Below, one piece after another: positions 54,115-56,337 of a DNA stretch of 64,000 nucleotides; position 1 is the stretch's first letter; the number at the start of each line of letters is the position of its first letter. The translations under genes were made by a program, and so were the position numbers. Below the pieces are notes generated by a model that had not been told where the DNA came from, did no database searches, and saw only the letters and a list, made by a program, of their open reading frames with translations. This stretch comes from Bdellovibrionales bacterium (GTDB lineage: Bacteria; Bdellovibrionota; Bdellovibrionia; Bdellovibrionales; Bdellovibrionaceae). The stretch is from the NCBI GenBank assembly GCA_005793345.1, contig SXSU01000137.1:1-64000 (forward strand), read 5' to 3'.

Positions 54115-54190
54115 ACAAACAAAAAATAACTGCTCGTGATTATGTCTGATATAATCGCGAAGCGATCAGGCTTAATCATGAGCAGTTATT
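54115..54190 (-). repeat. palindromic repeat module A with C remnant (copy 9)
   Basis: CCCCAAACAAACAAAA is the remnant of C plus spacer (from about 54109), then A at 54125-54190, 66 bp with near-perfect 26-bp arms and centre ATAATCGCGAAGCG. It ends 19 bp past the stop of the leftward SEDS-like gene, on its 3' side, in the same orientation relative to that gene as copies 1 and 5. Confidence 0.9.
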
Positions 54191-54208
54191 TTTAAATACG
54201 AATTTAGA

Positions 54209-55348
54209 TTAAGCGAAACTCGAAATATTTCGTCGCTTACCAGCGGCTAAAATCATCCCTATCATAAAGAAATGAGCAACCATGAGTGAACCACCGTAAC
54301 TTAAAAATGGTAAATTCACACCTGTTTTGAAAGCTGGTGTAAATCCTAAATTTGAATTTATTCCAAAAAATATCTCAATTGCAAAAAGTGATGCACATAT
54401 CATAGAGGTAGATTTTAACCATCGATTTTTTATTTTATTTGTAATTTTAAAAATCCGAGCTACGAAGGAAGCAAGAATCATAACTACAATTGCTGAAGCT
54501 ATAAAATTCATGCGACTTATTCCAGAGATTATAAAATCGGTATGTCTTTCTGAATTAATTATTGAACTTAATTGTTCATTATTTTGGAACACATTTCGAC
54601 TCCCAAAAAGTAATGCAAAAGTTCCAACTAATCCAATGATAACTAGGTTTGAATCTTTGATTTTAAAACAATTCAATCCAAGAATACATGAGCCTAAAAT
54701 TAGAATTGCTGGAAATAAAGAACCAATGAATGAAAAATAGATGACTGGAATCAATACTAATAAGGGAGCTGTGAGATTATGATACTTATTTGGAAGTTTT
54801 TCTAAAATAGCAGGTATTGAAATTGCCATCATAACACTTGAGAGATCAATTATTTTTATGTGTAAACCCATTAAAGATAAATAAGGTTGCCCTTCAAAAA
54901 TTAATCCTGACCAGAGGGAAGCAAAGATTCCTAAAAAACCAATTAAATACAGAGATGAGACAAAGTTTACAATTCTACGGTAGGGTGATATATAAACAAA
55001 TGTCATTGCTATTAGCCCTACTAAGATCCAAGCAAACTGATTGTAAGACCATTTAAGTGTTATTAAAAAAAATTCTCCAAAAAAAATGAGAGCCACAACT
55101 AAAAATAATAAAAATTTATCAATTTTAGGTTTTGAAATAAGATTAAGTTTTTTACCTACTGAAAGTGGATCTCCCATTCGTTTTAATGCTTCAACTTCTG
55201 CTTCAATTTCAGACAAGCCGAAACTTTTTGCCATTTGTATATTCTCTTCAATATGAATTTTAAATTCTCTACTCACATCGTATCTTGCCTCTTTAAACTG
55301 AATTTGTTCAGTTACTTGATTTATATATTCTTCAATTTTAGTTTTCAC
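54209..55348 (-). CDS. HAAS-domain / SEDS (FtsW-RodA-like) fusion membrane protein
   Basis: 379 residues. The N-terminal 75 residues are a HAAS-type permease-prefix domain (FKIHIEENIQMAKSFGLSEI then AEVEALKRMGDPLSVGKKLN). About ten membrane spans follow. The SEDS signatures are HTDFI (269-273) with the Asp at the position of the glycosyltransferase Asp, and TGVNLPFLSYGGS near the C terminus. SEDS proteins polymerise peptidoglycan; this one also carries a HAAS domain, which elsewhere pairs with PadR regulators. A PadR gene is 14 bp upstream. The Glu pair that usually follows HTDFI is absent, so activity is uncertain. Confidence 0.8.
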   Translation of the reverse strand: MKTKIEEYINQVTEQIQFKEARYDVSREFKIHIEENIQMAKSFGLSEIEAEVEALKRMGDPLSVGKKLNLISKPKIDKFLLFLVVALIFFGEFFLITLKWSYNQFAWILVGLIAMTFVYISPYRRIVNFVSSLYLIGFLGIFASLWSGLIFEGQPYLSLMGLHIKIIDLSSVMMAISIPAILEKLPNKYHNLTAPLLVLIPVIYFSFIGSLFPAILILGSCILGLNCFKIKDSNLVIIGLVGTFALLFGSRNVFQNNEQLSSIINSERHTDFIISGISRMNFIASAIVVMILASFVARIFKITNKIKNRWLKSTSMICASLFAIEIFFGINSNLGFTPAFKTGVNLPFLSYGGSLMVAHFFMIGMILAAGKRRNISSFA

Positions 55349-55362
55349 TTGTTTACTCCTAA

Positions 55363-55686
55363 TTAAATGACAATTGCATCAACAGCATCTCTGAACGCAA
55401 ACCAATCTTGTTTTTTTTCTTTTAAATAGCTTCGTCCTTTTTTAGTCAGGCAATAATATTTTCTTTTTCGTGAACCATCTTCTCCAACCCACTCTGAAGT
55501 GACTAATTCTTTTTCTTCAAGACTGTGGAGAATCGGATATAGCGTTCCTTCTCGTAGCTCAAAAAGTCCACTGGATTTAAGCTCAAGCTCTTTTATTATT
55601 TCGTAGCCATACATTTGTTTTCGTGAAAGTAATTGCATGACCAAAGTCTCAGTGCTGCCCTTCAATAATTCTTTATCAACTGTCAT
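55363..55686 (-). CDS. PadR-family transcriptional regulator
   Basis: 107 residues from the ATG at 55686 (GAGGT upstream); the ORF extends further but without a ribosome site. Winged helix typical of PadR-s1: LVMQLLSRKQMYGYEIIKEL then LREGTLYPILHSLEEKELV and RKRKYYCLTKKGRSYL. It usually represses its own operon and the downstream membrane gene and is released by a ligand. It sits directly before the HAAS-SEDS gene. Confidence 0.93.
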   Translation of the reverse strand: MTVDKELLKGSTETLVMQLLSRKQMYGYEIIKELELKSSGLFELREGTLYPILHSLEEKELVTSEWVGEDGSRKRKYYCLTKKGRSYLKEKKQDWFAFRDAVDAIVI

Positions 55687-55691
55687 AATAT

Positions 55692-55761
55692 ACCTCGCAT
55701 ATCTATGCATAGTTAAACGATACTTTTGATTTGGCAACAATTTTTTTAAGTAATGCGAGGT
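55692..55761. promoter_or_regulatory. inverted repeats upstream of the PadR gene
   Basis: ACCTCGCAT (55692-55700) and ATGCGAGGT (55753-55761) form a perfect 9-bp inverted repeat 52 bp apart, and CTATGCATAG (55703-55712) is a 10-bp palindrome between them. PadR operators contain ATGC/GCAT-like half sites, so this is a plausible autoregulatory site. The left arm also contains the ribosome site. Confidence 0.5.
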
Positions 55762-55782: not shown

Positions 55783-56337
55783 CTAGATATCACCACTGAA
55801 AAAAACACAATTCCATTGTTTTACATTTTTGATTTTAATAACTTTATTTTTAAATTCGATTTGTTTAAATAGATCAATGAGTTTTGGTCTGATTTGAGTA
55901 TGAACACGCCAGAGTATTTTGTAGAGCTTTATTGTATAGGAAAGAGTTGCTTCGTTGCAATTTGCAGGTAGCTCTAATCGAGGTGTCCAAAGTGATTTTA
56001 TCTGCCTTTTCGTGCACCAAAGATAATGCCGCCAAATGGGAAAATCTACGAAAATAATTTTATCGGCCAGATGAAACCTACGTTGCATAACTTCATAAGT
56101 TCCAAATCCGTCAATGAGCCAGCTGTCCTCATCCGCTTTTAGATTAAGAATTCTGGTTGTCTCCAAAGTATCACGAATCTTCATTCCAGCCAGATACTGA
56201 ATGCTATCTACATGAGTGAGGGGAAGAGAATATTTTGCTGCAAGTGACTTTGCTAAAGTGGTCTTACCTCCGCCACCATTTCCAATTATTGCAATTCGTT
56301 TTAGATTTTTCACAATTTCAGTTAACATATTATTCAT
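55783..56337 (-). CDS. P-loop nucleotide kinase-like protein (topology modulation/FlaR type)
   Basis: 184 residues. Walker A GNGGGGKTT (19-27) in IAIIGNGGGGKTTLAKSL, then LPLTHVDSIQYLAG, WLIDGFGTYEVMQRR and IIFVDFPIWRHYLW. The pattern matches the adenylate-kinase-like family annotated as DNA topology modulation protein. The substrate is unknown and the name should not be read literally. It stands alone upstream of the PadR gene. Confidence 0.75.
   Translation of the reverse strand: MNNMLTEIVKNLKRIAIIGNGGGGKTTLAKSLAAKYSLPLTHVDSIQYLAGMKIRDTLETTRILNLKADEDSWLIDGFGTYEVMQRRFHLADKIIFVDFPIWRHYLWCTKRQIKSLWTPRLELPANCNEATLSYTIKLYKILWRVHTQIRPKLIDLFKQIEFKNKVIKIKNVKQWNCVFFSGDI

Follow-up and report, generated by a model that had tools for sequence, protein, structure and literature searches.

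A PadR gene and a HAAS-SEDS fusion gene with a conserved predicted operator and a partly lost polymerase active site in a Bdellovibrionales genome

The locus described here lies on the minus strand of contig SXSU01000137.1, within the 64,000-nt stretch that we analyzed (hereafter the window), and comprises two genes separated by 14 nt. Its host is related to Bdellovibrio, a predatory bacterium. The first gene, padR (55363-55686, 107 aa, beginning MTVDKELLKGS), matches the Pfam PadR model (E 2.7e-25); the ORF finder starts it at a TTG at 55740, and homology together with the position of the predicted operator favors the ATG at 55686. The second gene (54209-55348, 379 codons, 379 aa) starts with GTG, carries an AGGAG 8 nt upstream, and encodes an N-terminal HAAS-type domain (residues 1-75; 55124-55348) fused to a SEDS domain (residues 76-379 plus the stop; 54209-55123). 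Downstream on the same strand, a long hairpin with a U-run (54118-54193) is the likely terminator: segment 54110-54215(-) folds at -33.5 kcal/mol (z -6.1), and the hairpin loop is too long for our simple terminator scan, which has no entry for it. Its presence suggests that padR and the fusion gene probably form a bicistronic unit. No Rfam match was obtained within the 64-kb window at gathering scores. Upstream of padR by 96 bp and on the same strand, 55783-56337 encodes a P-loop protein that resembles models named "DNA topology modulation protein"; no counterpart of this gene was seen beside the two other HAAS-SEDS loci found in Bdellovibrionota.

The C-terminal half of the fusion protein matches Pfam PF01098 (FTSW_RODA_SPOVE) above its cut-off (E 7.3e-15), and profile-profile alignment with hhalign against 47 canonical SEDS proteins aligns residues 73-376 (probability 99.7, E 2.7e-26). 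An AlphaFold2 model computed from nine family sequences (pLDDT 74.7, pTM 0.75) has four helices at the N-terminus, ten further long ones and, in ECL2, an element of three strands; its ECL4 region is poorly predicted. In a Foldseek search with this model, only RodA and FtsW chains were found below E 0.001, and VIA-align matched residues 73-376 to T. thermophilus RodA with a Z score of 29 (281 residues, 2.9 A), the runner-up fold being WaaL (Z 12) and all others scoring below 7. The agreement of profile and fold matches over residues 73-376 indicates that the SEDS domain is complete, including the N-terminal half missed by Pfam. The initial annotation had described a SEDS-type protein from the Asp of HTDFI and the TGVNLPFLSYGGS motif, and had held that a structure prediction without a SEDS fold would refute this; both motifs are present (at 269-273 and 342-354, respectively), and the predicted fold is that of SEDS proteins. 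The N-terminal helices (2-14, 19-42, 47-58 and 61-72) are modeled with pLDDT 80-91, and the HAAS-type domain carries a GxP motif, G59-D-P61. Over residues 17-68 the NCBIfam model perm_prefix_1, a HAAS-like permease prefix, falls just under its cut-off (27.5 versus 30 bits, E 2.1e-6), and it matches 12 of 13 family members (best E 1e-14), so that the HAAS assignment, also made initially, is borne out. By sequence, we found no convincing PDB relative of the HAAS part.

Like canonical RodA and FtsW, the SEDS domain has ten transmembrane helices, the ECL5 motif and the catalytic Asp of the HTD motif (H269-T270-D271, 54536-54544(-), equivalent to FtsW H295-T296-D297). Unlike them, it has lost active-site residues in a remodeled ECL2, in ECL3 and in a shortened ECL4, and it has gained a HAAS domain and a PadR gene alongside. 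To quantify these losses we used the positions at which substitutions abolish E. coli FtsW function (PMC8765783), mapping them twice, once in a joint alignment and once by adding the three Bdellovibrionota HAAS-SEDS proteins to a canonical-only alignment. In FtsW numbering, the window protein keeps D297, G371, Y379, G380, G381 and L198, and has Tyr for W138, Lys for Q147, Gly for P196 and Phe for G199; Q147K is itself non-complementing in FtsW (PMC8765783). Y242, R243 and R246 are without equivalent, the first two positions being occupied by Phe and Ala in the joint alignment and by a gap in the canonical-only one, and K133-R137 were left unused because the two alignments place them differently. 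The three Bdellovibrionota proteins all have Tyr at W138, Lys at Q147, Gly at P196 and Phe or Trp at G199, and lack R246. Across the wider set, position 138 is Trp in 47/47 canonical SEDS proteins versus 7/67 HAAS-SEDS proteins. The ECL4 segment preceding the Asp measures 28-35 residues in Bdellovibrionota versus 71-85 in canonical SEDS proteins and 58 in Listeria Lmo0421, a shortening of ~40 residues relative to the canonical form that removes the Y242/R243/R246 loop. It is at ECL4 that class B PBPs contact SEDS enzymes to activate them. Clostridial HAAS-SEDS proteins differ in that they keep R246 and a full ECL4 and mostly carry Asn or Glu in place of the catalytic Asp, which is retained in 30 of the 67 family members. 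Clostridial members without the Asp (mostly Asn there) evolve under purifying selection, with omega of ~0.2-0.35 and the HAAS domain usually the more constrained part.

The three Bdellovibrionota proteins, at only ~30% identity to one another, share the catalytic Asp, the whole ECL5 loop and a new ECL2 motif (GQPY, IK--DL). The persistence of Asp and ECL5 at this level of divergence suggests that something binds or reacts there. E. coli FtsW functions without the His and Thr of HTD (PMC8765783), and the visible HTD motif therefore makes catalysis look better founded than it is; with many other essential positions replaced or deleted as well, the two motifs from which the initial annotation argued guide poorly. 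FtsW mutated at its catalytic site could still bind lipid II (PMC8765783), so that lost catalysis does not imply lost binding.

Just upstream of the padR start lies the predicted PadR operator, a 23-bp imperfect dyad at 55689-55711 that is recognized on both strands. It was scored with a 21-bp matrix trained solely on 20 clostridial padR promoters (consensus TACATAGAATATCTAGGTATA), and reads TACCTCGCATATCTATGCATA on the plus strand (55691-55711) and TGCATAGATATGCGAGGTATA on the minus strand (55689-55709). Its scores of 19.4 and 16.5 are the top two on both strands of the 64-kb window, where the best non-overlapping site reaches 8.3, and none of 500 shuffles scored as high. Under the same clostridial matrix, the promoters of loci L006, L046 and L041 score 18.6-22.6 (0/500 shuffles each). 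The pattern TRCMTMG-N5-CKAKGYA occurs without mismatch a single time in the 3.96-Mb assembly (83% complete), at the padR operator, and one-mismatch matches are fewer than for a reversed-pattern control; the single exact match suggests that the regulon of this PadR is probably its own operon only. The initial annotation had noted inverted repeats ahead of the PadR gene. The gene and the repeat are both there, the latter with exact 9-nt arms 52 nt apart (ACCTCGCAT at 55692-55700 and ATGCGAGGT at 55753-55761), but as an operator this wide repeat is unsupported by the matrix: the conserved 23-bp site takes in the left arm only, and the distal arm is absent among the matrix sites scoring above 5. 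The 9-nt arms are probably not the operator, the distal one (55753-55761) being a possible accessory half-site.

The operator appears to follow the type of PadR. The window PadR is 64-68% identical to the PadR proteins of the two other Bdellovibrionota loci and 52-56% identical to clostridial ones; it is a clear PadR family member and, at 90.2 bits versus a curated cut-off of 101.8, ranks only as a near relative of TIGR03433, an acidobacterial PadR paralog family. At the promoters of the Bacillales and Listeria loci checked, the clostridial matrix found no site, consistent with a different PadR subtype there. A weaker form of the operator precedes two PadR genes of the phylum that adjoin other HAAS proteins, and the site thus seems tied to the PadR subtype rather than to SEDS. 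The genome of the window also encodes another PadR-HAAS pair, a classic one with a small membrane protein (G000:C74; L036, 1441-2357; HAAS Pfam E 2.8e-13), with no convincing copy of the 55689-55711 operator.

The initial annotation had regarded this arrangement as mainly a Firmicutes one, found here in a Gram-negative genome, and the genome counts agree. HAAS-SEDS genes occur in 37/238 genomes of a clostridial order and in 55/200 of a Bacillales order, versus 3/369 genomes of Bdellovibrionota (the window's own, G005 and G047), so that HAAS-bearing homologs do exist in this phylum and are rare. In total, 6/369 Bdellovibrionota genomes match the N-terminal 262 residues; of the remaining three, two pair a PadR gene with HAAS fused to a different partner (G038, G337), and in one the HAAS gene beside PadR is broken (G056). 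A contig scan with two narrow peptide patterns gave matches only in a Bdellovibrionaceae and in Firmicutes. In our set of 67 distinct full-length HAAS-SEDS genes, every member is immediately preceded by a PadR gene, and none of the canonical SEDS loci has one of its own. Three HAAS-SEDS genes of Firmicutes are each divided between two ORFs (L110, 1501-2835; L108, 1489-2849; L090, 1489-2878), perhaps through frameshifts or recent decay.

For phylogenetic reconstruction we used the SEDS part alone, leaving out the HAAS columns. In the resulting tree all HAAS-SEDS proteins, that of the window included, fall on one side of a branch with 100/100 support, apart from FtsW and RodA, and the three Bdellovibrionota proteins form one clade (100/99); a larger, quick tree agrees. 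Besides the fusion, the assembly encodes three canonical SEDS proteins, and a local origin, with HAAS joined to a resident Bdellovibrio-type SEDS protein, is rejected by the tree (AU test, P = 5e-5). Contamination by a Firmicutes contig is ruled out, since the same clade is present in two other assemblies of the order; it is also countered by the neighboring kinase gene, which is normal for the host family and 54-65% identical to a gene found in most relatives. The long branches of the three Bdellovibrionota proteins point to an old lineage rather than a recent transfer, and it looks as though HAAS-SEDS was either acquired long ago in this phylum or lost many times.

By this phylogeny and by its gene order, the window locus belongs to the known HAAS-SEDS/PadR family of the Listeria lstR-lmo0421 type. 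As in the Listeria sigC-lstR-lmo0421 operon (PMC6624303, PMC6686043; L043), a PadR gene is followed by a HAAS-SEDS fusion, and Lmo0421 aligns end to end with the window protein (24% identity, E 2e-25). The Listeria operon is auto-repressed, and LstR has hardly any strong targets outside it (PMC6624303), a state that is predicted for the window counterpart. The window locus differs in lacking an ECF sigma gene, and its PadR is of another subtype than LstR. Clostridial padR-HAAS-SEDS pairs (L047, L048, L080-L108) share its PadR subtype and its predicted operator. HAAS and PadR have been proposed to act as a signaling dyad, in which HAAS would pass a conformational change to PadR, and the fusion of HAAS to an FtsW/RodA/SpoVE membrane domain is among the fusions listed (example CAC98500.1) in PMC11237479; the HAAS domain of the window locus, with its standalone PadR neighbor, resembles the dyad as described there.

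We therefore suggest, with a probability of about 0.6, that the locus is an LstR/Lmo0421-type module made of an autorepressed PadR and a HAAS-SEDS receptor or pseudo-enzyme. Both genes would be co-transcribed from one promoter, which a single PadR operator overlaps, and with this predicted operator over its own promoter the pair would repress itself. The SEDS part retains its fold and, of the substrate cavity, one half (Asp271, ECL5); the remainder of the polymerase active site is gone, as is much of the loop by which class B PBPs activate SEDS enzymes. With so much of the active site lost, sensing or signaling becomes more likely than wall building. As a membrane receptor or pseudo-enzyme, the SEDS part might bind a lipid-linked precursor of the cell wall (lipid II or another) or a compound that targets the wall; the SEDS-derived membrane domain would thus supply the signal or effector, the cytoplasmic HAAS domain would relay it to PadR, and relief of repression would yield more HAAS-SEDS protein. 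Since the operon is the only predicted target of its PadR, the HAAS-SEDS protein must also be the output, and this would suit a receptor that protects or buffers in some way. Extended to Firmicutes and Bdellovibrionota alike, this becomes a more tentative proposal, to which we give somewhat less than even odds: HAAS-SEDS proteins may be pseudo-polymerases turned receptors, in which a lipid-linked wall precursor, or a drug interfering with it, occupies the SEDS cavity and HAAS signals this to PadR.

With Asp271 and ECL5 retained and a new ECL2 motif in common, the three Bdellovibrionota proteins might still carry out altered chemistry. The fusion protein could be an enzyme of changed specificity, its SEDS cavity and new ECL2 acting on another lipid-linked substrate (for instance as a transferase or hydrolase) in a dose set by PadR. 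The conservation of these elements would fit such chemistry better than decay, and the model also bears a weak resemblance to WaaL, an O-antigen ligase; however, the Asp is absent in 37/67 family members, which means that the family as a whole cannot share a role built on Asp-dependent chemistry, and we consider this explanation rather unlikely. Still less probable is the role first proposed for the window protein, that of a stress-inducible, active peptidoglycan polymerase backing up FtsW or RodA. A back-up function was once floated for Lmo0421 too (PMC6624303), and the SEDS fold, Asp271 and the ECL5 glycines and Tyr are all kept, but the window protein lacks the equivalents of W138, Q147, P196, G199, Y242, R243 and R246, each essential in E. 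coli FtsW (PMC8765783), its ECL4, the place of activation by the class B PBP, is ~40 residues shorter, and overproduced Lmo0421, the one relative examined experimentally, neither replaced the FtsW1 or RodA proteins nor changed antibiotic susceptibility (PMC6624303). We thus favor a sensor or pseudo-enzyme, acting within an autoregulated HAAS-PadR circuit, over a polymerase. That the gene is a functionless, decaying remnant of horizontal acquisition is very improbable: the patchy distribution (3/369) and the broken HAAS gene of G056 would suit it, but the ORF is intact and flanked by a predicted operator and a likely terminator, motifs are conserved across three proteins that are ~30% identical, and the HAAS-SEDS family is under purifying selection.

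The HAAS-SEDS/PadR architecture and its Listeria example are already published. Judged against the open-licence literature, what is new is the clade in Bdellovibrionota, in which ECL4 is shortened and ECL2 is new, together with the predicted operator shared across phyla and the family-wide tally of lost polymerase residues, with earlier mention elsewhere being possible; the passages of PMC11237479 consulted contain no discussion of this clade. These results bear on the role of Lmo0421, a SEDS protein unable to do the job of SEDS proteins: the residue loss throughout the family and the operator conserved across phyla point to a receptor or pseudo-enzyme, and the analysis names the residues and the 23-bp site relevant to that reading. 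If it is true, cells would read the state of wall synthesis via a repurposed polymerase, and one membrane protein and one regulator would make up a system that senses the supply of wall precursors. Relatives of the module within the phylum take other forms. In G056 (L041, 1-301), PadR and operator are intact, but stops close to the end of the contig interrupt the HAAS gene behind them. Two further genomes of the phylum have a PadR gene ahead of a protein in which HAAS is joined to a region of ~350 residues with no Pfam match (L040, 355-1791; L042, 1477-2784), and these two regions resemble each other.
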